Both the position numbers and the translations under genes were made by a program. Below, piece by piece: positions 40,355 to 57,150 of a stretch of DNA of 64,000 nucleotides. Every line of letters starts with the position of its first letter. Position 1 is the first letter of the stretch. The DNA is from Miscanthus floridulus (lineage: Eukaryota; Streptophyta; Magnoliopsida; Poales; Poaceae), in NCBI RefSeq assembly GCF_019320115.1, contig NC_089582.1, positions 116,442,637-116,506,636 on the forward strand, in the 5' to 3' direction. The notes below the pieces were generated by a model. That model did no database searches. It was not told where the DNA came from and saw nothing but the letters and a program-made list of their open reading frames with translations.

Positions 40355-43300
40355 TGTGGCAGAACCTCCTAAGTTATAGGGCCCACATACACCTGTCACT
40401 GTCCGGCGACCTCTGACATCTATGCATATGTTTCCATGAACTTAAAAAGACTGTCGGGTGTCCTCGGGGAACCCCGAATCATCCACGATTTCCGAGCAGG
40501 ATCACGTTACAGAGTCATTGTAGTATTACAACATTTATTCAAATATCAAAACCAGAGTAAAAACAGCGGAAGTCTTATGATAACATAGTTTACAAACCAG
40601 TTATTTCAAACCTTACAAACTAAGTTCTTTAATTATTACAAACCATAGTAGTAGTGGAGTGGCATGATTAATATATACATAACACACAAAATAAACATCC
40701 TGCCCAAGGATCACACATTTACTTCTCATCATCAGAACGAATGATAGTCATGCAGCACGATCCAAAACAGATCTACTCATGAGGCTCACCTGCAACAAGG
40801 GGTCAACGAACCCTGAGTATAAAAGTACTCAACAAGACTTATCCGAAATATTAACTGATAAACTCAGTAATGCAGGCTCAGGGATTCAAGGTATAGCTTT
40901 AACAATGATCAAAGTTCTTTTGCGTAAAAGCTCTTTTAACAACATTCTTTATATAGAAAACTTCCAAGAATTATATACAAAGCTGACACGATCCGCACTG
41001 AGATCATGAAACTTCATATTCAGTACCTTCACAAGCCTTATTCAAGTTCTGGTTATTAATTCTATGATGATGAACAGTGAGTTGAGTCTCCTTAACCGAG
41101 GAGCAACGACGATTCGAACCGATTATAAACCCAGCTGGGAATTCCAGACCACACGACATACGCAGGTCCCTGACCTCCATATACCAACCTACCCTCGGAT
41201 CCTCTAAAACAAGAACGGGTCCGCGCCACCCGAGAACACAGTACTCCACCATTCCAGCCCATGGCCACGTGGGTACACGCTATTCCCGCCATCTCTCCAC
41301 TCCCAGTGCACGAGTAGCCATTCTCGTAATAGAATTGCCAAGTTCAGGCTTACCGGAGTATGTGGTTAGTACTACAAATTCTCACCTCATGCAATTCAAC
41401 AACGGACGTGCCTTAATCGACACAGGCGGAAAGAACCCGCTCACAAGACCTCCATGTCTGGTGGCTCACACACACCGAGTCCACCCGGTCTAGATTTATT
41501 ACTCCACATTCCCATATCACATGCTAACATAATTAACCAATGTTCCATTTAAAACTAGCAGGTGGCAGGTAGTCAGCCGACTTTCATCGTTCTACGCATA
41601 GCTAAGCAAAACTAGGCATATACGAGTTTAAAACAGGTAATATGGTAAATATGGAATAACAAGGGTGGTAATGCACCAATTAGGCTTTTACTTAACTCCT
41701 AATCACTTAATGCAGTAACAGAAAGCAAAAGCGAAATTAATTTATAAAATACAAGGTAGGGTTGTATGCATCCGGGGCTTGCCTTCGTTGATGGAAAAGT
41801 CCGATTCCTACGACGTTACACAAGTATTCGATCTGACTTCAATAGACGGATAAACTTCTTCCATGACTTGATTAACTACCACATGTTCACCTTCGTTCAC
41901 TACACGTAATAACAATGCCATGTTTAACATGATGCGGAATACGAAATATGATGCTTGATGATGGATGCAAAGTTAATAATTTGAATACAACTTTCCTTCG
42001 CGGTACAGTTGCAAGTCAAACAAACTAAATCTTTTTCGTAACACATATATCAACTACCAAGGATCATTAACAACAAATGACCCGAGGTCATCACTCAATT
42101 CCAAAAGTCCAAACAAAAACCTAAATCATTAAAGGTTACTATTTGCTTTTATGAATTAATTATTTAATTCAAAATTATGAAATAAATCAACTTATTCTAT
42201 TTGAGCTCAAAATTTTAGTACATGTTCATTACATGTTAACTAAGTGGCAAAACAAATTTCATAATTTTTGGATAAATAAATAAGCCTAGAAAAATCATGG
42301 AAATCCATTTATGAATAAATTGAGCAATTTTTATTACATTTAAAAATTACTGAAAAACACTATTTCATATTTTTCTTAAATACTATACCTCACAGAGAAG
42401 TCACTCAAAAATTTTCATAATTTTTGGAGCTCTAAATAAATCTACACAAAAATAACAAAAACAGACACTATTCATTCAAATCTGAAAATAGAAAAATTCA
42501 TTTTGAACGTTGAGTCACTGACATGGTGACCCCACCTGTCATCTTCTACCTGCCGCGTGTTGACTACGACGACGACGGCGCTGACCGGCGCAAACTCACC
42601 GACGGTGAGATCAACGGCGACGACCAACGTACCAAAATGACCACATCATTCCGGCGCATCGACTGAAGGCGCTAGCTAGACGAATTACTACGAGTTACGA
42701 GCTTGGCGTCGGCCATGGCGGACGCGGTGGCTCGGCAGTGCTACGCCGGTGAAACGAAGCCGAAAACGGGGAAACAGAGGGCATGGGAAGGTCCAGTAGC
42801 TCACCACGAACACTACAGAGCAGAAAGCAAGGCTGGAGAAGCAGCGTAGACGCAGGTCGACGTGAACAGCAACGGCGGCGGAGCAAGGATCGTCGGTGAC
42901 GGTGTGCCGGCGACTGCAGTGGATAAAACAGCCAATCAACAGCGAAATGAGCACTACAGCATCGAGACGAAGCTAAAGATACACCAATCAAGGGCAACGG
43001 CTCACCGACGGGCTCTGGCCACGGAGATGCGCATGCGACGGTGAGGTTACCGGCCGCGAGGAAGAAGGCGATGAAACTCGAGTTCCCGGTGAAGACAAGC
43101 CAAATTGGTGGGTCAGATGGACGCGCAAGGTTCAGGCGGAGCTGGGACTAGCTTATCAGCGACGGTGGAGCACGACAACGACGGCACGGGCTCGCCGGAG
43201 ATGGAGCAGCGGCGATGGGAAAAACAGAGAACGAAGAAAGAAGAACGGCGGCGGCTCCAGAGCTTTATAGGGCAGCCAAGGAAGCGCAAAGAAGCCACGA

Positions 43301-43947
43301 CGAAGCCTTCAGCGCGCCAACGCGATGCCCAGACGGCCACGCGCGCGACTGGAAGCAAGCCGAAGCTCGCCGGCGGTGTAGTGCAAGCGGTGAACACTGT
43401 TCATCGAAATTACAAGTTTGCCATTCGCCAAAATTCACAAATTACTCCCAAATTTTTATAACAACTCAAAAATCTCCAAAAATAAAAGTTGTTCAAAATC
43501 AAAAGTTCTACAACTTTGCTTTATAACCATCTCCTAATTCGGTCTAGATTTTGAAATGAACTTTTGAATTTGAATAGGGAAATTTACCGAATTACGCCTT
43601 TTTGATTTACTAAAAAATTTTCTAAACAACTTGAAAAACTCCAAAAACAAACTTTGTATAACTTGCCAAGCTCTACACTTTTGCTTTTGGGCCCAACCCC
43701 AAAATATGCTTAGATTTTGAAATGGATTTTCAGGGTAGGATTTAAATGTTGAAAAGCGGGGTTTTCTCGAAAAATTCAAAATCCAAACAAACATTGAACT
43801 TGAGTCAAACAATACATTGCAACACATACCACATAAATATAAACTTGTATTAGTGTATGCACCTCAAAGTTTCACCAAATGCCAAATGCTTTGCAATGCA
43901 TATGATGACATGTCAGATTTTAATATTTAAACACCCGAGGTGTTACA
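40355..43947 (-). repeat. Tekay-like LTR (sense 3' LTR)
   Basis: It starts TGTGGCAGAACC and ends GGTGTTACA on the plus strand. It is nearly identical to 49753-53346. Open frames of 60-118 codons within it recur in the other copy and overlap on both strands in the GC-rich part, so they are not taken as genes. Confidence 0.95.
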
Positions 43948-43964
43948 GTCCTTCCCCCTAAAAG
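43948..43964 (-). other. Polypurine tract of the Tekay-like element
   Basis: The minus strand reads CTTTTAGGGGGAAGGAC directly before the LTR start TGTAACACC. Bases 43965-44114 between it and the pol stop are the 3' untranslated part. Confidence 0.85.
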
Positions 43965-44114: not shown

Positions 44115-45521
44115 CTATATTGACGCCAGAAACTCTGGAAACTTTTCTAACAAGTAATCTTCTGATTCCCAAGTAGCTTCCTCTTCTGAATGTTGATTCC
44201 ATTGTATTTTATAGAACTTGATTGTCCATTTTTGAGTAACACGATCTTTCTGATCTAACACTCAGATAGGATATTTGGAATAAGTTAAATCTGGTTCTAG
44301 TTCCACTCCTTCAACTTCAACATTCTGTTCAGGCACTCGGAGACACTTCTTCAATTGAGAAACATGGAACACATCATGCACAGCTGCAAGATGTTCAGGT
44401 AATTGCAAGCGATATGCCACTTTTCCATACCTTTCCAAAATTTGATATGGTCCAATGTATCGGGGTGCCAACTTTCCTTTAACACCAAAATGGTTAACTC
44501 CCTTCATTAGTGATACTTTCAGATATACAAAATCTCCTTTGTTGAATACCAATGGTCTCCATCGTCTATCCGCATAACTCTTTTGGCGGGACTGAGCTAT
44601 CTTTAAATTACTCTGTATTTGTCTAACCTTGTCTTCTGTTTCTTTCACATGGTCAACTCCAAAGAATCTTCTTTCTCCAGGTTCAGACCAACTCAATGAT
44701 GTTCTGCATCTACGACCATAGAGTGCTTCAAATGGAGCCATTCTAATGCTTTCCTGATAACTATTGTTGTATGAGAACTCGGCCAAAGGTAAGCATTCGT
44801 CCCACTTATTGGAATAGTTAAGGACACAACACCTTAACATATCTTCAAGTACTTGATTAACTCTTTCAGTCTGTCCATCAGTTTGCGGATGATAAGCTAT
44901 ACTATACAGAAGTTTGGTACCCAATGAAGAATGCAATTGTTTCCAAAAGTTGGAAACAAATTGTGTACCTCTATCTGACACAATAGTCTTGGGTACTCCA
45001 TGAAGACTCATGATTCTTGCTAAATACATCTTGGCATATTGGATCGTAGGATATATTGTCTTGACTGGAAGAAAATGTGCTGACTTAGTGAGTCGATCTA
45101 CAATAACCCATACTGAGTCAAATCCCTTTGATGTCTTGGGTAGACCAACAATAAAATCCATACTTATATCCTCCCACTTCCAAGATGGAATAGGTAATGG
45201 TTGTAATTCACCAGCAGACCTCAAATGTATAGCTTTCACCTTTTGACAAGTATCACACTTCGCTATATATCTAGCAATTTCTATTTTCATTTTAGTCCAC
45301 CAGAATCTTTGCTTCAAGTCATGGTACATCTTGTTGCTTCCTAGATGGATAGATAACCTAGTAGCATGTGCCTCATCTAGAATTGACTGCCACAACTCAA
45401 GAACTTTTGGTACCACCAGGCGATCCTTGAACCATAACACATCTTCATTGTCAATACTAAAGCATTCCACTTTTCCATTCTTGACTCTTTCCTTAATATG
45501 GGCTATACCCTTGTTTTCCTT
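44115..45521 (-). pseudogene. Tekay-like integrase with chromodomain (two nonsense breaks)
   Basis: The zinc region has HATRLSIHLGSNKMYHDLKQ then CDTCQKVK. The catalytic core has MDFIVGLP, IVSDRGTQFVSNFW and the Glu of TDGQTERVNQVLED, i.e. D,D-35-E. A GPY/F-like module (LAPRYIGPYQILERYGKVAY) follows. TGA at 44264-44262 interrupts the frame just before the chromodomain (44261-44118), whose visible features are WTIKFYKIQWN, EEEATWESEDYL and FPEFL. The chromodomain is thought to guide chromovirus integration to heterochromatin by binding methylated histone tails. The segment is preceded by the TAG at 45524. Everything lies in one frame with the rest of gag-pol. Confidence 0.88.
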
Positions 45522-45959
45522 CTAAGCAGCAATAACTTGATCTCGAATAGGGGCTTCAATAATTATGTTGGTCAAACTTCCTTGTTGAATTACTTCTACA
45601 TTCAACTTTTCCATTTCTTGACATAAATTCAAACCCATTGTTCTCACTGTCAGACAATTGCAATAACTTTTGCGACTGAGGGCATCTGCAACTACATTTG
45701 CTTTACCGGGGTGATAATGTACTTCCAAGTCATAATCCTTAATCAGTTCTAACCATCTTCTCTGTCGCATGTTCAACTCTGACTGAGTAAAGATATACTT
45801 TAAGCTTTTGTGGTCTGTATACATATGACATGTATTACCAAGCAGGTAATGCTGCCAAATCTTCAGAGCATGAACCACAGCTGCTAACTCCAAGTCATGG
45901 GTCAGATAGTGTTCTTCATGTTGCTTAAGTTGCCGGGATGCATAAGCAATGACTCGACC
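45522..45959 (-). pseudogene. Tekay-like RNase H segment
   Basis: [40 protein letters not shown] and [16 protein letters not shown] are the RNase H landmarks. The first active-site Asp ([11 protein letters not shown]) lies just upstream, before the TAA at 45962-45960. The segment ends at TAG 45524-45522. No frameshift is present. Confidence 0.87.
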
Positions 45960-47477
45960 TTATTGCATCAATACACATCCAATACCAATACCTGAAGCAT
46001 CACAATAAACATCAAACGGCTTCTCGATGTCAGGTTGGGCTAATACTGGTGCAGTGGTTAACAGTCTCTTCAAAGTCTGGAAAGCCTCCTCACAATCTGA
46101 TGACCAGACAAACTTAACTTGGTTCTTCAACAATTCAGTTATGGACTTTGATATTTTTGAGAAATCTAGAATAAACCGGTGGTAATATCCCGCCAAACCC
46201 AGAAAACTCCAAACTTGATGAACTGTGGTTGGCGGTTTCCAATCAAGCACATCCTTCACTTTGCTTGGATCAACTGCAACTCCTTCGGCTGACAAGACAT
46301 GTCCAAGAAATTGCACTTCCTTAAGCCAAAAATCACACTTGCTGAACTTGGCATATAGTTGATGTTCCCTCAAACGGGTCAGAACAATTCTGAGATGTTC
46401 CGCATGTTCTTTCTTATTCTTGGAATATACTAAAATGTCATCAATAAACACCACTACAAACCTGTCTAGCTCAGGCATGAATACTGAGTTCATTAGATAC
46501 ATGAAATGAGCTGGAGCATTTGTCAAACCAAAAGATATTACCAAGTATTCATATAATCCATATCTTGTGGTAAACGCCGTTTTAGGAATATCCTCAGGCT
46601 TTATCTTGATTTGGTGATATCCTGATCTCAAATCTATCTTGGAGAAAACTTTGGCTCCGGCCAATTGATCAAAAAGCAGATCTATCCGAGGTAATGGATA
46701 TTTATTCTTGATGGTCACTTCATTCAATGGACGATAGTCGACACATAACCTCAAAGTCTCATCTTTCTTTTTCACAAAAATTGCCGGACATCCCCAAGGT
46801 GAGGAACTAGGTTGGATAAACCCTTTCTCAATCAATTCTTGTAACTGAGTCTTCAACTCGGCCAATTCCTTAGGTGGCATCCTATAAGCTCTCCGAGAAA
46901 TCAGAGCTGTTCCAGGTTGTAACTCTATATTAAACTGTACATCCCTATCAGGTGGTAGACTGGGTAAATCTTTAGGAAATACATCCGGAAATTCACACAC
47001 TACCGGAATATCTCTAATCTCTTTGACAGCAGTTGCACAAATCTTGCCCACTGATCTTCTTAGGATTGGAAGTTGGATAAGAAGTTGAGAATTACTATCA
47101 GGCAAATTCACTCGTAAGGTCCTATTCAAAGCATCTATAACAGCCTTATGCTGATACATCCAATTCATTCCCAAAATTACATCTATATCCTGATCCTTAA
47201 GGATAATCATGGTAGTGGGAAAAATATGCCCACCCAGGTTTATGGGTACCTGGTATGCCATTTCCTTAGTACACAGACGTCCCCCGGGCGACTGTATAAA
47301 GAAACTTTCCTTTGTTGCCCCAATTGAAATTTCATGCTTCACGACAAATGTTCTATTGATGAATGAATGCGATGCGCCAGAATCAAAAAGTATAACTGCG
47401 GGGTGATTGGCAACAGGAAACATACCCATCATCACTGGCTCCCCTTTCGGAATTTCTCTAGCTTGAATATAGAACAC
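45960..47477 (-). CDS. Tekay-like protease and reverse transcriptase segment
   Basis: An uninterrupted 505-codon stretch of the gag-pol frame. The protease active site [11 protein letters not shown] has its Asp at 47384-47382. The spacer leads to RT with [56 protein letters not shown] and the catalytic [11 protein letters not shown] (FIDD in place of YIDD). The RNase H start [11 protein letters not shown] is at its end. The frame is open upstream to TAG 47702 and closes at TAA 45962. The first Met shown at 47477 is not the natural start, since the polyprotein begins at gag. It gives no product by itself unless the stops are bypassed. Confidence 0.85.
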
Positions 47478-48605
47478 CCGTCCTGTCTTCCTCTCATCTT
47501 TGCCCTTTTGAGCATTCTGATTGGGGTTCTTATTTGGTGCCTGACCCTGTTGTTGATTAGCAGGGGCCTTCTGATAATTTTGATTAGCCTGCCTAGGATA
47601 TGGACATTCCCTAGAGAAATGACCAGTTCTTCCACAATTGTAACACGGATAGTTGTGACCCTGGGATGTTGGAGCATTGCCACCAGGAGCATTGGTTGAC
47701 TATGAACCCGGATAGGTTATAGCAGGACGGACATTTGACTGTTGCGCAGCTTGGAACTACGGTGGACGATAAGGAGGACGATTATGATGTACTGGATGAT
47801 AAATCACCCTCTGCCTCTTCTGATTTCCACCAAAAGATCCAGATGGCACACTCTTTTTCTTTTTAAGCTCCTTATGCTGCCGATACTTTGATTCTGAAGC
47901 AATTGCAATATTTACTGCCTCATGGTAAGTAACATTGGTGCAAGTGGTCATCATAGTCTGCAACTTGGTATTTAGACCTCTCATAAACCACCACTTCTTC
48001 TTGGCATCAGTATTGACATGTTCGGATGCATATTGGGACAGATGATTAAATCTTCCCACATACTGCATCACGGTTTGATCTCCTTGTTTCAAAGCAAGGA
48101 ATTCATCTAGCTTCATAGCCATCACTCCTTTAGGGATATAATGGGCTCTGAAGGCAATACAGAACTCAGCCCAAGTTATTGGAATACCAGCAGGTTGCAT
48201 AGCCACTAAGTTTGCCCACCAAGCACTTGCTGCTCCTCTAAGTTGTTGGGCGGCAAACGTAGGTTTCTGATACTCCGTGCATGGGATAAGGTCAAATTTC
48301 TGCTCCATGGTTCGAAGCCAGTCATCAGCCTCCAATGGTTCATCTGCCTTAGTGAACACTAGGGGTCTTGTGTCTGTGAAATCAACATATGTAGCCTCTT
48401 GTCGGTTATGGTGGCGTCCACGGTTTTCGTACATCTGATTCTGATTACTCTAGGCCATCTCATGAAGCAAACGAGAATTTTCAGCCGTCACATTGACAAG
48501 TGCGGTTATAGCATCAGCTAAATTGGTTAGAACTGGTGGCGGATCTAGAATACCATCCTCATCTTGTGAAGTTCCAGGAATATACGAACCTCGCGTACGA
48601 CGCAT
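47478..48605 (-). pseudogene. Tekay-like gag with CCHC zinc knuckle (three nonsense breaks)
   Basis: The likely ATG is at 48605 (MRRTRGSYIPGTSQDED), as the frame is open from there and shared with pol. The capsid-like Retrotrans_gag domain shows FDLIPCTEYQKPTFAAQQL, GAASAWWANL, EFCIAFRAHYIP and MKLDEFLALKQGDQTVMQY (48330-48060). A basic linker follows, then [14 protein letters not shown] (CX2CX4HX4C) at 47645-47604. In-frame TAG codons are at 48452, 47759 and 47702. No frameshift was found. It would form virus-like particles and bind element RNA. Confidence 0.85.
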
Positions 48606-48781
48606 CTGCTCATAATAAACCAAACTTTATTCACATGTCTTTATTAAATTGTACCAAAGCTTACTCTAGACACATTACAAAGAGTTTACTAATGTACAAA
48701 CAAACCCACGAGTACGAGAACAAAACTACTTAACTTAACTAGAGCTACTATTATACAACTCTACTCTTTTCCTTAATTTCT

Positions 48782-49351
48782 TCAAACTTCAGGCTCGGTA
48801 TCCATTCCGGAATTATTACCGCCTTTATCATCGCTTTCATCGATCATTACTAATTCTTCAGGATCTTCTTCTTCTTCCTCTCCCGATTCATCATCATTGG
48901 CAAGGATGACACCGGGGTCCATTGCATCCGCTTGAGGCTCATGATTCGGATTTAGTAGATTGCTAAGCCTATGAACCTCCTCATGTAGATACGTATTATG
49001 TTCTTCTAAATCTTCTACATAGAATTCTAGCTCATGAGTTCTAGCTCTAGCTACATTTTCCCTGTGCCAAGCTTCATTTCTTCCTTCCACCATACGAACT
49101 AACATACTTTCGCAGTTCCTATGTGCAGTGGTGAGCTGCCTCAATTGACCCTGTAATTCTCCTATTTGTATAACATCCAAAGCCCTATCTCTAGTAGATT
49201 GTGCTAACTCCATAGAAACCCTCAGTATCTCTGCTTGGGGATCAGGCCTAGAACTGCTGCTACTGGCACCATCATTTCTAGGGGCAAGTTGGTGACGAGG
49301 AACTCCTTTGGGTCCGGTGGACTTACGGGGCGTCATCTTGACACGAGCCAT
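48782..49351 (-). CDS. Chromovirus upstream ORF: histone H3 tail-like N-terminus, coiled coil, acidic tail
   Basis: An intact 189-codon ORF in a different frame from gag-pol, between the PBS and gag. I start it at the ATG at 49351 (context CAGTATGGC, A at -3 and G at +4) rather than the weaker in-frame ATG at 49393. The protein begins MARVKMTPRKSTGPKGVPR then HQLAPR. Against the plant H3 N-terminus about 16 of 25 positions agree, with one extra residue; K4, T6, R8, K9, S10, T11, G12 and K14 are kept. A Ser-rich linker (about 29-34), a predicted coiled coil (about 40-133) and an acidic region (about 145-189, with GEEEEEDPEE) follow. There is no histone fold, so it is not a histone gene. Function unknown; a chromatin-directed accessory role is inferred. 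The gag ATG lies 177 nt beyond its stop. Confidence 0.75.
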   Translation of the reverse strand: MARVKMTPRKSTGPKGVPRHQLAPRNDGASSSSSRPDPQAEILRVSMELAQSTRDRALDVIQIGELQGQLRQLTTAHRNCESMLVRMVEGRNEAWHRENVARARTHELEFYVEDLEEHNTYLHEEVHRLSNLLNPNHEPQADAMDPGVILANDDESGEEEEEDPEELVMIDESDDKGGNNSGMDTEPEV

Positions 49352-49738
49352 ACTGTAGGTAGCCAATTTAATCCAAGTAAGACCATTGATCAAAATCCAG
49401 AAAGTAGCTAAGATGGTTTACATTCCTCAAACCAGACTCACTACTTAACTCCAGACTAAGAGGTGAAGGAAGTAACAAGTGAATTATTCCTGATGCATGA
49501 ATCGTTCTTACGAACAAAAACATCAAAAATTTATAATGCACATAAACAACATTTATTTTTATATAGGGCATAGTATAATTACTACATCACACAAAAACCT
49601 TTTTAATCAAATAGGGAAGGGTGAGAAAGAAATAAGATAAGTCAGAAGCAATTTGGACTAAATTACCAAGTTAAATTTAGTCATCCAAATCGTTTTGAAG
49701 TTTTTGTAAAACAATACAACAAAACCTTGTAACGATTG

Positions 49739-49750
49739 CTCTGATACCAT
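49739..49750 (-). other. Primer binding site, initiator tRNA-Met type
   Basis: The minus strand reads TGGTATCAGAGC, two bases from the LTR at 49753. It is identical to the PBS of the LARD-like element. The leader from here to 49352 has no gene. It ends in CTACAG just before the upstream ORF, a possible splice acceptor. Confidence 0.93.
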
Positions 49751-49752
49751 TC

Positions 49753-52700
49753 TGTGGCAGAACCTCCTAAGTTATAGGGCCCACATGCACCTGTCACTGT
49801 CTGGCGACCTCTGACATCTATGCATATGTTTCCATGAACTTAAAAAGACTGTCGGGTGTCCTCGGGGAACCCTGAATCATCCACGATTTCCGAGTAGGAT
49901 CATGTTACAGAGTCATTGTAGTATTACAACATTTATTCAAATATTAAAACCAGAGTAAAAACAACGGAAGTCTTACGATAACATAGTTTACAAACCAGTT
50001 ATTTCAAACCTTACAAACTAAGTTCTTTAATTATTACAAACCATAGTAGTAGTGGAGTGGCATGATTAATATATACATAACACACAAAATAAACATCCTG
50101 CCCAAGGATCACACATTTACTTCTCATCGTCAGAACGAACGATAGTCATGCAGCACGATCCAAAATAGATCTGCTCATGAGGCTCACCTGCAACAAGGGG
50201 TCAATGAACCCTGAGTACAAAAGTACTCAACAAGACTTATCCGAAATATTAACTGATAAACTCAGTAATGCAGGCTCAGGGATTCAAGGTATAGCTTTAA
50301 CAATGATCAAAGTTCTTTTGCGTAGAAGCTCTTTTAACAACATTCTTTATATAGAAAACTTCCAAGAATTATATACAAAGCTGACACGATCCGCACTGAG
50401 ATCATGAAACTTCATATTCAGTACCTTCACAAGCCTTATTCAAGTTCTGGTTTTTAATTCTATGATGATGAACAGTGAGTTGAGTCTCCTTAACCGAGGA
50501 GCAACGACGATTCGAATCGATTATAAACCCAGCTGGGAATTCCAGACCACACGACATACGCAGGTCCCTGACCTCCATATACCAACCTACCCTCGGATCC
50601 TCTAAAACAAGAACGGGTCCGCGCCACCCGAGAACACAGTACTCCACCATTCCAGCCCATGGCCACGTGGGTACACGCTATTCCCGCCATCTCTCCACTC
50701 TCAGTGCACGAGTAGCCATTCTCGTAATAGAATTGCCAAGTTCAGGCTTACCGGAGTATGTGGTTAGTACTACAAATTCTCACCTCATGCAATTCAACAA
50801 CGGACATGCCTTAATCGACACAGGCGGAAAGAACCCGCTCACAAGACCTCCATGTCTGGTGGCTCACACACACCGAGTCCACCCGGTCTAGATTTATTAC
50901 TCCACATTCTCATATCACATGCTAACATAATTAACCAATGTTCCATTTAAAACTAGCAGGTGGCAGGTAGTCACCCGACTTTCATCGTTCTACGCATAGC
51001 TAAGCAAAACTAGGCATATACGAATTTAAAACAGGTAATATGGTAAATATGGAATAATAAGGGTGGTAATGCACCAATTAGGCTTTTACTTAACTCCTAA
51101 TCACTTAATGCAGTAACAGAAAGCAAAAGCGAAATTAATTTATAAAATACAAGGTAGGGTTGTATGCATCCGGGGCTTGCTTTCGTTGACGGAAAAGTCC
51201 GATTCCTGCGACGTTACACAAGTATTCGATCCGACTTCAACAGACGGATAAACTTCTTCCACGACTTGATTAACTACCATGTGTTCACCTTCGTTCACTA
51301 CACGTAATAACAATGCCATGTTTAACATGATGCGGAATACGAAATATGATGCTTGATGATGGATGCAAAGTTAATAATTTGAATACAACTTTCCTTTGCG
51401 GTACAGTTGCAAGTCAAACAAACTAAAACTTTTTCGTAACACATATATCAACTACCAAGGATCATTAACAACAAATGACCCGAGGTCATCACTCAATTCC
51501 AAAAGTCCAAACAAAAACCTAAATCATTAAAGGTTACTATTTGCTTTTATGAATTAATTATTTAATTCAAAATTATAAAATAAATCAACTTATTCTATTT
51601 GAGCTCAAAATTTTAGTACATGTTCATTACATGTTAACTAAGTGGCAAAACAAATTTCATAATTTTTGGATAAATAAATAAGCCTAGAAAAATAATGGAA
51701 ATCCATTTATGAATAAATTGAGCAATTTTTATCACATTTAAAAATTACTGAAAAACACTATTTCATATTTTTCTTAAATACTATACCTCACAGAGAAGTC
51801 ACTCAAAAATTTTCATAATTTTTGGAGCTCTAAATAAATCTACACAAAAATAACAAAAACAGACACTATTCATTCAAATCTGAAAATAGAAAAATTCATT
51901 TTGAACGTTGAGTCACTGACATGGTGACCCCACCTGTCATCTTCTACCTCCCGCGTGTTGACTACGACGACGACGGCGCTGACCGGCGCAAACTCACTGA
52001 CGGTGAGATCAACGGCGACGACCAACGTACCAAAATGACCACATCATCCCGGCGCATCGACTGAAGGCGCTAGCTAGACGAATTACTACGAGTTACGAGC
52101 TTGGCGTCGGCCATGGCGGACGCGGTGGCTCGGCAGTGCTATGCCGGCGAAACAAAGCCAAAAATGGGGAAACAGAGGGCATGGGAAGGTCCAGTAGCTC
52201 ACCACGAACACTACAGAGCAGAAAGCAAGGCTGGAGAAGCAGCGTAGACGCAGGTCGACGTGAACAGCAACGGCGGCGGAGCAAGGATCGTCGGTGACGG
52301 TGTGCCGGTGACTGCAGTGGATAAAACAGCCAATCAACAGCGAAATGAGCACTACAGCATCGAGACGAAGCTAAAGATACACCAATCAAGGGCAACGGCT
52401 CACCGACGGGCTCTGGCCACGGAGATGCGCATGCGACGGTGAGGTTACCGGCCGTGAGGAAGAAGGCGATGAAACTCGAGTTCCCGGTGAAGACAAGCCA
52501 AATTGATGGGTCAGATGGACGCGCAAGGTTCAGGTGGAGCTGGGACTAGCTTATCAGCGACGGTGGAGCACAACAACGACGGCACGGGCTCGCCGGAGAT
52601 GGAGCAGCGGCGACAGGAAAAACAGAGAACGAAGAAAGAAGAACGGCGGCGGCTCCAGAGCTTTATAGGGCAGCCAAGGAAGCGCAAAGAAGCCACGACG

Positions 52701-53346
52701 AAGCCTTCAACGCGCCAACGCGACGCCCAGACGGCCACGCGCGCGACTGGAAGCAAGCCGAAGCTCACCGGCGGTGTAGTGCAAGCGGTGAACACTGTTC
52801 ATCAAAATTACAAGTTTGCCATTCATCAAAATTCACAAATTACTCTCAAATTTTCATAACAACTCAAAAATCTCCAAAAATAAAAGTTGTTCAAAATCAA
52901 AAGTTCTACAACTTTGCTTTTATAACCATCTCCTAATTCGGTCTAGATTTTGAAATGAACTTTTGAATTTGAATAGGGAAATTTACCGAATTACGCCTTT
53001 TTGATTTACTAAAAAATTTTCTAAACAACTTGAAAAACTCCAAAAACAAACTTTGTATAACTTGCCAAGCTCTACACTTTTGCTTTTGGGCCCAACCCCA
53101 AAATATGCTTAAATTTTGAAATGGATTTTCAGGGTAGGATTTAAATGTTGAAAAGCGGGGTTTTCTCGAAAAATTCAAAATCCAAACAAACATTGAACTT
53201 GAGTCAAACAATACATTGCAACACATACCACATAAATATAAACTTGTATTAGTGTATGCACCTCAAAGTTTCACCAAATGCCAAATGCTTTGCAATGCAT
53301 ATGATGACATGTTAGATTTTAATATTTAAACACCCGAGGTGTTACA
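49753..53346 (-). repeat. Tekay-like LTR (sense 5' LTR)
   Basis: It starts TGTGGCAGAACC and ends TGTTACA on the plus strand, with the sense strand running from 53346 down. It contains the element promoter near 52665. It is nearly identical to 40355-43947. Confidence 0.95.
52661..52670 (-). promoter_or_regulatory. TATA box of the chromovirus LTR promoter
   Basis: The minus strand reads CCCTATAAAG, about 680 bp inside the LTR and at the edge of its GC-rich block. The same box is in the other LTR at about 43263-43270. Transcription from here would give a U3 of about 0.7 kb and a very long R-U5 of nearly 2.9 kb before the PBS. Confidence 0.6.
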
Positions 53347-54061: not shown

Positions 54062-55130
54062 GGAAATTTAAGGGTAAAAGCAACGTAGTTGTTCTATGTT
54101 CCAAGCGTTGGTGAAGATTTTGCCCCTCTTGTTGGCTAGCTTGTAGGTCCCGGGCTTCAGCACTTGGGCGACGATGTATGGTCCTTCCCATGGTGGGGTC
54201 AACTTGTGGCGGCCCTTGTTGCTCTGTGTCAACCTCAACACCAGGTCGGCTACCTTCAAGTCTCAGCTTCGAATGCGCCGGGCCTGATAGCGCTGTAGGG
54301 CTTGCTGGTATTTGGCCGAGTGCAGCAGCGCAACGTCTTGGGCTTCCTCCAGTTGGTCGAGGGCGTCCTCGCGGGTGGTGCGGTTGCTTTGCTCGTTGTA
54401 GGCCTATAGCCTCGGGGAACCATATTCCAAGTCGGTGGGGAGGATGGCTTCGGCTCCATAGACCAGGAAGAAAGGTGTGAACCCCGTGGCTTGGCTTGGA
54501 GTGTTCCTTAGGCTCCAGATGACCGATGGGAGTTTGGCGAGCCATTTCCTGCCAAACTTCTTCAACCGGTTGTAAATTCTTAGCTTGAGGCCTTGTAGGA
54601 TCATGCCATTGGCACATTCTATTTGGACATTGGTCCTTGGGTGTCCTACGGCTGACCAGGCCACATGGATGTGGTGGTCATCGCAGAATGTCAAGAATTT
54701 TTTGCTGGTGAACTGTGTCCCGTTGTCGGTGATGATGGTGTTAGGGACCCCGAACCTATAGATAATGTCAGTGAAGAATAGCACTGCTTGCTTGGATTTG
54801 ATTTGGTTGATCGGACGAGCCTCGATCCATTTGGAGAACTTATCGATTGCTACCAGTAGATGGGTGTAGCCCTCGGGGGCCCTCTACAGAGGCCTGACCA
54901 TGTCAAGCCCCCACACAGCAAATAGCCATGTAATGGGGATGGTTTGGAGGGCTAGGGCCGAGAGGTGCGTCTGCCGAGCATAGTACTGGCATCCCTCGTA
55001 GGAGCGTACTAGCTTGGTGGCGTCGGCAACCGTCGTTGGCCAGTAGAACCCTTGGTGGAAAGCATTTTTGATGAGCGTCCGAGGCACTGCATGGTGCCCG
55101 CAGGCCCCTGCATGCAAGTCCCACAGTAGG
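54062..55130 (-). pseudogene. Tat element integrase (broken)
   Basis: An HHCC-type zinc region (FHQGFYWPTTVADATKLV, CQYYARQTH) lies near 55117-54940. The catalytic core has VWGLDMVRP, then IITDNGTQFTSKKF near 54725 and a Glu in IECANGMILQG near 54610, completing D,D-35-E with C where R is usual after the Glu. The end part LVLRLTQSNKGRHKLTPPWEGPYIV (54259-54068) is the integrase C-terminal domain. TAG at about 54405 and TGA near 54260 interrupt the frame. The function was insertion of element DNA into chromosomes. Confidence 0.82.
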
Positions 55131-55479
55131 GCTTGGCCTGCCTCGGTGGTGATGCATCGTTGGAGGACACCGGAGGGACTTCGCCTGTAAAATTCGTCAT
55201 TGCAGAGGATGTAAGTTTTGGCTTGCCACGCAAGCCATCGGGCTTTGGTCCAGTCACTAGGAAGCTATCCCTGAGCGAGCCAATCAAGGAATGGGACTCG
55301 CCAGTCCATGTCCTAGTCGGTCTAGGGAGGCTCTGTGTTGACTTCCATGACCTTGGGCTCGGCCAAAGGAGTCTCAGCGGCAAAGGGGCATTGAGCCCCG
55401 CCGTGGGTTCGACCGATGGGCCCTCCTCTGCTACCGAGGCGTAGTCAATGGAAGGTTTGTGGAGGTCCCTGGCAAAGAC

Positions 55480-55872
55480 GTTCGGGGGGACCGGAGCCCA
55501 TGCCAAGGCCATCTTTGCCAGTTCATTGGCGGCCTCGTTGTACTTCCACGTGATGTGGTTGAGTTCGAGACCGTCGAACTTGTCTTCTAGGCGACGTACC
55601 AACTTGTAGTATGCCTCCATTTTGGGGTTGAGGTAGTTCGACTCCTTCATGACTTGATCGACAATGAGCTGCGAGTTGCCCTGGACGTCGAGACGCCGTA
55701 CCCCAAGTTCGATGGCGACTTGCAAGCCATTGACGAGGGCCTCATACTTGGCCGCGTTGTTGGAGGCGGCGAAGTGGAGCCACACCATGTAGCGCATGTG
55801 TACTCCGAGGGGTGAGATGAAGAGTAGACCCACGCTTGCCCCGGTCTTTGTTAGAGACCCATCGAAATACAT
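55480..55872 (-). pseudogene. Second, archaeal-type RNase H of the Tat element
   Basis: YFDGSLTKTGASVGLLFISP, NNAAKYEALVNGLQVAIELG, VQGNSQLIVDQV and YNEAANELAKMA mark an RNase H with D, E and D active-site positions. It is separate from the gypsy RNase H at about 56310-55900. Tat elements are known to carry such a second, archaeal-like RNase H between pol RNase H and integrase. The domain itself is uninterrupted, though the frame around it has stops. Confidence 0.78.
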
Positions 55873-55899
55873 GGTCCAGTATTCTGTCTAAATTTGAGC

Positions 55900-57150
55900 A
55901 GGTGGCAGTTGGGTGTCGGTCCACTCAGCCACAAAATCGGCCAAGACCTGAGACTTAATCGCTTTTCGAGGTGCAAAAGTCAAGGCTTCCCCCATAAGCT
56001 CGATGGCCCACTTGGCTATCCTACCCGAGGCCTCCCGATTATGGACTATCTCCCAAGGGGAAAGACGATACCACGGTCATTGGGTGGGACTCGAAGTAGT
56101 GACGCAGCTTGCGCTGGGCTAGGACTATGGCATAGACCAGCTTCTAGATGTGGGGGTAGCGTGTTTTGGTCTCGGAGAGCACTTCGCTGATGAAGTAAAC
56201 AGGTCATTGGATGGGTAGAGCATGCCCTTCTTCCTGCCTCTCTACCACTACGGTAGCGCTGACCACTTGGGTCATTGCGGCGACATAGAGTAAGAGGGCC
56301 TTGTCCATGGCCGGTGGTACCAGGATGGGAGGATTGGTGAGCAATGTTTTGAGCCTATCGAGGGCTTCTTCAGCCTCAGGGGTCCAAGAAAAGCGTTCAG
56401 ATTTTCTCAAGAGGCGGTACAGAGGCAAGCCTTTTTCGTTGAGGCACGAGATGGAGTGACTCAGGGCCGCAAGGCATCCCATGACCCTCTGCACTCCCTT
56501 GAGGTCTCGGATTGGTCCCATGCTGGTTACGGCCGATACCTTCTCCAGGTTGGCCTTAATGCCACGTTCTGAGACTATGAACCCTAAGAGCATGCCTTGG
56601 GGAACCCCAAACACACACTTCTTGGGGTTGAGCTTGATGCCCTTCTCTCTGAGGCATTTGAAGGCTATCTCCAGGTCATCGATGAGATCCCTGGCCTTTC
56701 TGGACTTGACCATGATGTCATCCACATAGGCCTCGATGGTTCGCCCAATGTGCTCGCCAAAACCCTAGGTCATGCACCGCTGGTATGTGGCTCCTGTGTT
56801 TCTGAGGCCAAAAGGCATAGTCACGTAGCAGTACATGCCGAACGGTGTGATAAAAGAAGTCGCGAGCTGGTCGGACTCTTTCATCTTGATTTGATGGTAA
56901 CTAGAGTACGCATTAAGGAAAGATAGAGTCTCACATTCTGCAGTGGAGTCAACGATTTGATCGATTCAGGGTAATGGGAAGGGGACTTTTGGACAGGCTT
57001 TATTCAAACCGGTGTAATCTACACACATCCTCCACTTCCCATTTTTCTTCTTGACCAACATAGGGCTAGCTAACCACTCTGGATGGGATACCTCCTTGAT
57101 GAATCTGGCCGCCAAGAGCTTCTGCAACTCCTCGCCAATGGTCCTACGTT
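55900..57150 (-). pseudogene. Tat element reverse transcriptase and gypsy RNase H
   Basis: RT begins near 57140 (PEWLANPMLVKKKNGKWRMC, VDYTGLNKACP) with the catalytic EAYVDDIMVKS at about 56730-56700, then LNPKKCVFGVPQGMLLGF and FSWTPEAEEALDRLK. The RNase H remnant follows: LLLYVAAMTQ, VYFISEVLSETKTRY, FAPRKAIKSQVLADFVAEW. Frame breaks: several stops between 57000 and 56730, TAG at about 56205 and others. The YVDD motif is intact. Confidence 0.82.

Follow-up and report, generated by a model that had tools for sequence, protein, structure and literature searches.

A conserved histone H3-tail-like N-terminus on the ORF0 protein of a chromovirus-type retrotransposon from Miscanthus floridulus

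The retrotransposon and its additional open reading frame

The window analyzed here (the whole 64,000-nucleotide stretch of Miscanthus floridulus DNA) carries one LTR retrotransposon, running on the minus strand from 53346 to 40355, the features of which are presented in Table 1. The LTRs exceed 3 kb, have TG...CA termini reading TGTAACACC...GCCACA, and both a primer-binding site and a polypurine tract are present; the primer-binding site, TGGTATCAGAGC, is presumably of the initiator Met tRNA type. Alignment of the LTR pair over 3594 bases gave 56 transitions and 5 transversions, and 30 of the 56 transitions fall at CG sites, the pattern expected when an element is methylated and silenced. At a substitution rate of 1.3e-8, the LTR distance corresponds to an insertion age of about 0.66 million years. 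The element is flanked by GTCGG and GTTGG, which resemble a 5-bp target duplication differing at a single position.

Table 1. Features of the window, with coordinates counted from its first nucleotide.
Feature	Coordinates	Strand	Basis
5' LTR, TG...CA	49753..53346	-	98.3% identical to 3' LTR
Candidate 5' splice site CAG/GTGAGC in LTR (first intron base 50187)	50182..50190	-	Sequence scan
Primer-binding site	49738..49749	-	Sequence
Candidate 3' splice site, TACAG a single base upstream of ORF0 ATG	49353..49354	-	Inference
ORF0 (5' additional ORF), 189 aa, stop included	48782..49351	-	ORF translation; homologue search
H3-tail-like N-terminus of ORF0, codons 1-25	49277..49351	-	H3 alignment; kept in relatives
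ORF0 residues 38-133, predicted single long helix, probable coiled coil	48953..49240	-	AlphaFold2; heptads
ORF0 residues 134-189, acidic, mostly low-confidence, net charge -20	48785..48952	-	AlphaFold2; charge
Probable gag ATG, directly after GAGCAG	48603..48605	-	Sequence
gag capsid region	47757..48434	-	Retrotrans_gag E 3.6e-21
Protease and reverse transcriptase	45960..47477	-	RVP_2, RVT_1
RNase H piece	45522..45893	-	RT_RNaseH
Integrase	44262..45470	-	Integrase_H2C2 E 1.3e-17, above cut-off
Chromodomain-like stretch with EEATWESE, cut from integrase by in-frame stop	44115..44261	-	Sequence
Polypurine tract before 3' LTR	43948..43959	-	Sequence
3' LTR, TG...CA	40355..43947	-	LTR comparison
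Second element, RT end	56204-56725	-	Domain search
Second element, RNase H (RVT_3)	55009-55872	-	Domain search
Second element, integrase core	54404-54784	-	Domain search

The coding regions follow the order gag, protease, RT, RNase H, integrase, and are interrupted by in-frame stops. One of these lies in gag upstream of the capsid piece and another precedes the chromodomain-like stretch, which indicates that the copy has decayed. The integrase region also gave an rve match at E 2.4e-07, just below the cut-off. Excerpts of PMC3350952 give EEXTWEXE as a chromodomain motif characteristic of Tekay; EEATWESE, located after the in-frame stop, matches it, and a second motif given there, (K/R)-X-(L/T)-R-X-(k/r), had no exact match by eye in the decayed stretch. 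Domain order, long LTRs and the EEXTWEXE motif point to a Tekay-type chromovirus (Ty3/gypsy). Searches of viral contigs and genome contigs returned no DNA relatives of the element. A second decayed gypsy-type element was observed on the minus strand upstream of the 5' LTR, at 54404-56725.

Between the 5' LTR and the gag ATG at 48605 lies an extra ORF, referred to here as ORF0. As the sequence-only reading had described, it is a minus-strand frame with its ATG at 49351, 189 residues and a stop codon ending at 48782. An extra 5' ORF is known from the grass elements Retrosat2, RIRE3 and RIRE8, maize Tekay and sorghum Sb7, and in the grass Tekay-type elements the ORF0 or 5'aORF occupies the same place between 5' LTR and gag, again with long LTRs (excerpts of PMC3485330 and PMC11728184). 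Some of the published members combine a long helix with disorder, as here; hydrolase-like or dsRNA-binding-like structures have also been proposed (excerpts of PMC3485330 and PMC11728184).

The leader of the unspliced RNA in the window contains 27 ATGs ahead of the ORF0 ATG, between 50178 and 49386, so that ORF0 would not easily be made from unspliced RNA. The candidate donor in the LTR is the only donor-like site scoring at least 8/9 between 50320 and 49353; it is weak alone, because at least one such site occurred in 26% of mononucleotide shuffles of 50320-49353. Around it, between 50342 and 50179, no ATG starts, and TATA-like boxes lie at 50375 and 50353, with three more further down. We hypothesize that an intron running from this LTR donor to the TACAG ahead of ORF0 would remove the leader-ATG problem. 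Splice-like sequence was observed at 49353-49354 and at 48606-48607, directly before the ORF0 ATG and the gag ATG respectively, and ORF0 and gag could possibly be made from separate spliced mRNAs with the donor in the LTR.

With respect to predicted shape, AlphaFold2 gave residues 1-37 of the window ORF0 (charge +6) low confidence, followed by a high-confidence helix (block means 94-98 for residues 41-130) and an acidic end of low confidence; the tail is thus predicted to be disordered. With the best of the seven registers, 57% of heptad a/d positions were hydrophobic versus 16% elsewhere, a pattern which makes a coiled-coil pair likely. The distant relative P0143 showed the same predicted plan, with a helix at 39-130. 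No histone fold was predicted for either the window ORF0 or P0143, each modeled as a single helix; ORF0 and histone H3 are alike over residues 1-21 and differ in that one long helix is predicted for ORF0. The possibility of a decayed whole H3 was rejected: the match of P0142 to H3 was extended as far as residue 60, yet a search with only the 67 residues that follow its tail gave no match among PDB chains at E up to 10. Pfam matches of the ORF0 proteins to ATG16, Bestrophin_2 and other coiled-coil families were below cut-offs and were likewise set aside. Within the acidic end, at 48820-48860, a hydrophobic patch is followed by acidic residues (ELVMIDESDD; VVVIDDD in P0143), which we take to resemble a SUMO-interaction motif.

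Likeness of the ORF0 tail to histone H3 and its retention in relatives

When aligned to H3 with one inserted residue, the window tail was identical at 15 of 23 positions after Met (16 of 24 including Met), so that the earlier count of 16 of 25 was about right. None of 100,000 composition-preserving shuffles of the tail reached 15 H3 identities, the maximum being 11, and the window, taken on both strands, has 889 open 26-codon stretches that begin with ATG, among which the tail scored best and the next best reached 7/23. When the 25 tail residues were run blind against the PDB with phmmer, histone H3 was the top match (E 0.0037), and all of the best 60 of 120 matches were H3-type chains. The tail of P0004 matched H3 at E 0.00063, while a profile of the tails of 12 representatives matched it at E 1.2e-10, again with H3-type chains in all of the best 60 of 138 matches. 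One control 25-mer taken from the ORF0 helix matched nothing in the PDB at E up to 10. The sequence match to the histone tail is thus beyond chance, as would be expected of a histone mimic. The H3 likeness reported at the start of this chromovirus ORF was confirmed and is stronger than first claimed.

The likeness begins exactly at Met, and the sequence upstream of the tail varies between lineages of relatives. The sequence-only reading had placed the tail at the very N-terminus. This holds in the window, where the stretch from the upstream stop to the ORF0 ATG contains no other in-frame ATG, but not necessarily in 10 of 75 tail-bearing proteins, where an in-frame Met 16-68 residues upstream means that the tail need not be N-terminal.

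A search with the full-length window ORF0 found 248 homologues at E<=0.01. Among the best 120 of these, the ORF reached the start in 25, all of which carried the tail; P0007 and P0087 begin within the tail, P0062 and P0084 begin with other residues, and the remaining listed homologues begin further inside or with other residues. A second search, using residues 1-60 of P0015 and hence biased towards the tail, found 48 proteins (46 reaching the start) and revealed distant relatives whose tails are nearer to H3. Two of these, P0142 and P0143, have 17 H3 identities in the tail; they start MARTKQTARK, in which ARTKQTARK is exactly H3 1-9. The tail of P0146 is without the inserted residue.

The tail bias of the P0015 search was removed by using a profile of post-tail parts only, which found 279 proteins among 7991 candidates scored. 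In the best 120 of the 279, 34 ORFs have the tail at their start and match H3 there at 13/21 residues or more; 4 of these were profile seeds, 6 were already in the full-length listing and 24 were new. Of the other 86 listed matches, none of which begins with the tail, at least five (P0084, P0160, P0200, P0202 and P0206) start with other residues and, as read by eye, appear to be frame-shifted or rearranged copies; the rest start inside the body and so say nothing about the tail. All 34 listed relatives whose ORF reaches the start carry the tail. Relatives lacking the H3-like residues were to count against the sequence-only reading, and this tail-blind search did not refute it.

In P0084 and P0062, leader or LTR-end sequence is joined to the ORF0 body. 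These were considered as spliced products; by eye, internal deletions fit better, and both look like internally deleted copies.

In total 75 tails were found, the window's own included, and 74 were counted, as P0171, the start of which is plainly tail-like, was unplaced by the script anchor; P0202 was left out as a frame-shifted copy. Single-linkage at 50% body identity gave seven clusters, two of them short fragments, with 59 of the 75 in one cluster; the sets of 12 and 8 representatives were chosen by hand. In the eight hand-picked full-length representatives, mean identity was 85% in the tail versus 34% in the body, the tail being higher in 28 of 28 pairs, and in the seven automatic clusters the corresponding values were 74% and 36% (20 of 21 pairs). 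All 13 invariant columns of a chosen 19-sequence alignment, and all three of a 29-sequence alignment, fall within residues 1-25, noting that some alignment members are short at the far end, which lowers invariant counts there. Relatives retain the tail even as the remainder of ORF0 diverges, and it is the best-kept part of ORF0 in the relatives examined. We are highly confident that the H3 likeness exists and is conserved. Arguing from amino acids only, the tail would appear to be under selection at the protein level.

Retention of the H3 residue in the 74 tails was as follows: A1 70, R2 41, T3 67, K4 70, Q5 5, T6 71, A7 28, R8 57, K9 73, S10 53, T11 54, G12 62, G13 1, K14 43, A15 1, P16 73, R17 61, K18 0, Q19 73, L20 72, A21 72, T22 0 and K23 0. 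In the 12 representatives, both K9 and Q19-L20-A21 were present in 12/12. Position 7 is Pro in 38/74 tails, the window copy included, position 2 is Lys instead of R2 in 20/74, and S10 is variable, features which are unlike a faithful H3 ligand. Where Arg is replaced, the residue is H or C in 13 of 17 cases at position 8 and in 12 of 13 at position 17; CG decay in dead copies yields exactly these changes, and the true constraint on R8 and R17 may therefore be tighter. A1 and T3 are lost in P0131 and P0133, and K4 is lost in four relatives (P0192, P0204, P0207 and P0133). The P0131 and P0133 tails begin MGRLKQTP or MGPLMQTP, with the H3 head gone and KGVPRHQLAPR kept, a hint that the two halves of the tail may have separate duties.

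At 20 of positions 1-21, the exception being K18, the H3 residue occurs in at least one of the 12 representatives, with G13 and A15 found in P0146 only. The residue pattern fits an H3 ancestor, and a host H3 gene is the probable source of the tail; convergence may be an alternative origin of the likeness. With respect to ubiquitin-acceptor lysines, the equivalents of K18 and K23 are Lys in none of the 74 tails, and that of K14 is Lys in 43. The loss of K18 and K23, absent from the sequence-only reading, opens another candidate pathway.

Possible roles of the H3-like tail

We give an even chance to the interpretation that ORF0 is a retrotransposon-encoded H3-tail mimic serving to bind host H3-tail factors. 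Met would be removed from ORF0 and Ala1 exposed; the rods would pair, each dimer displaying two H3-like tails away from nucleosomes, and ORF0 would compete with H3 for host factors which read or modify the tail. Such competition would weaken silencing of the element. As K4 and K9 are kept, methyl-lysine writers and readers, the SUVH/CMT-type enzymes put forward in the sequence-only reading among them, are possible partners. HP1-type chromodomains bury position 7 of the H3 tail, and the Pro7 in 38/74 tails together with the variable S10 argues against an HP1-type reader as the partner.

It is the ubiquitin branch that is indicated by the loss of K18 and K23 from tails in which P16, R17 and Q19-L20-A21 are mostly retained. 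The retention of K4, K9, T6, P16 and Q19-L20-A21 in most tails, with K18 and K23 replaced, fits a bait which would be bound like H3 yet be unable to carry the ubiquitin marks by which the CG-maintenance methyltransferase is recruited and activated. The specific version of this, in which a dimeric rod would act as a poison H3 tail, occupying VIM-MET1 and/or the H3K9-methylation machinery and passing on no ubiquitin signal, we regard as tentative and rather unlikely. In excerpts of PMC12704277 and PMC7060239, the PHD finger of UHRF1 recognizes ARTK in H3 and VRTK in PAF15; UHRF1 ubiquitylates both H3 and PAF15, and the DNMT1 RFTS binds the doubly ubiquitylated tail (the same sources, with excerpts of PMC9681727 and PMC6316679). 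As described in parts of PMC12474915, Arabidopsis VIM1 promotes H3-tail ubiquitylation in vitro, with a partly non-specific E2; the activity of Arabidopsis MET1 rises 2-fold with doubly ubiquitylated H3, a stimulation termed modest; and work cited there found no binding of the VIM1 PHD finger to any canonical histone. The VIM1 PHD result and the modest stimulation of MET1 count against the bait interpretation. The K18/K23 loss singles out one pathway which is checkable with peptides.

Viral histone mimicry, as in NS1 and ORF8, is short and internal or C-terminal, whereas that of ORF0 is N-terminal, about 21 residues long, co-linear from Met and kept across relatives. Influenza NS1 and SARS-CoV-2 ORF8 are, like ORF0, parasite proteins with a short H3-like stretch (excerpts of PMC10893272). 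Closer in position is PAF15, the vertebrate PCNA-associated factor, whose H3-like N-terminus VRTK replaces H3 at UHRF1 (excerpts of PMC7060239 and PMC12704277). PAF15 is a cellular protein which is doubly mono-ubiquitylated and recruits DNMT1; ORF0, in contrast, belongs to a retrotransposon and is without Lys at H3 positions 18 and 23 in 74/74 tails. VANC of the Arabidopsis VANDAL transposons is likewise an extra plant-transposon protein countering silencing (excerpts of PMC10398659 and PMC5735166), but acts sequence-specifically on DNA, whereas ORF0 would act by protein mimicry.

The existence of ORF0 is already published, and the H3 likeness was not found in the literature examined. The word 'histone' has 0 occurrences in the main texts of PMC3485330 and PMC11728184, and no ORF0-H3 link appeared in titles or abstract openings among the matches listed from open-licence literature. 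For plant Tekay-type ORF0/5'aORF proteins, excerpts of these two papers offer structure-based guesses at function. The conserved H3 start makes that function testable, in terms of which H3-tail binder is held and whether silencing is weakened or integration steered. If the mimic interpretation is true, it would represent histone mimicry carried by a retrotransposon; the poison-tail version would make it an anti-silencing weapon based on epitope mimicry, kept while the remaining protein changed.

A different and, in our estimation, unlikely role for the tail is that of a handle for the element's own machinery, binding the integrase chromodomain directly or after K9 methylation, and so joining ORF0 to the integration complex or keeping that complex off the wrong chromatin. 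A chromodomain-like stretch follows the integrase of this chromovirus, the factor with which plant group II chromodomains interact was reported as not found (excerpts of PMC3350952), and sunflower Tekay groups with and without the 5'aORF differ in insertion pattern (excerpts of PMC11728184), all of which are in keeping with such a role. However, group II chromodomains, the Tekay kind, are without the aromatic cage residues for methyl-lysine (excerpts of PMC12786077 and PMC11728184). This argues against the chromodomain or integrase target which the sequence-only reading had put forward.

It is improbable that the tail acts as an import or chaperone signal of the histone type, taking ORF0, and perhaps the particle or cDNA, to the nucleus via the H3 route. 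The best-kept block, P16...Q19-L20-A21, does lie inside the H3 region used for import, and residues 1-37 of the window protein carry a charge of +6, but the retention of A1, T3 and K4 in most tails would be left unexplained, and K23, which import receptors contact in H3, is lost.

We consider it quite improbable that the tail is merely what remains of an H3 5' coding end once captured, without any H3-related role and kept by an RNA-level duty such as splice acceptor context, packaging or a leader function. Capture is consistent with a match that runs co-linearly from Met, the ORF0 ATG is preceded by the splice-acceptor-like TACAG, and the start region adjoins the leader, where cis signals lie; constraint on RNA nevertheless fails to predict K9 in 12/12 and Q19-L20-A21 in 12/12 of diverged representatives. 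Finally, a chance or compositional likeness, suggested by the abundance of R, K, P and T which the tail shares with many basic tails, was refuted at the sequence level by the 0/100,000 shuffles and the tail profile match to H3 at E 1.2e-10, and its probability is negligible.
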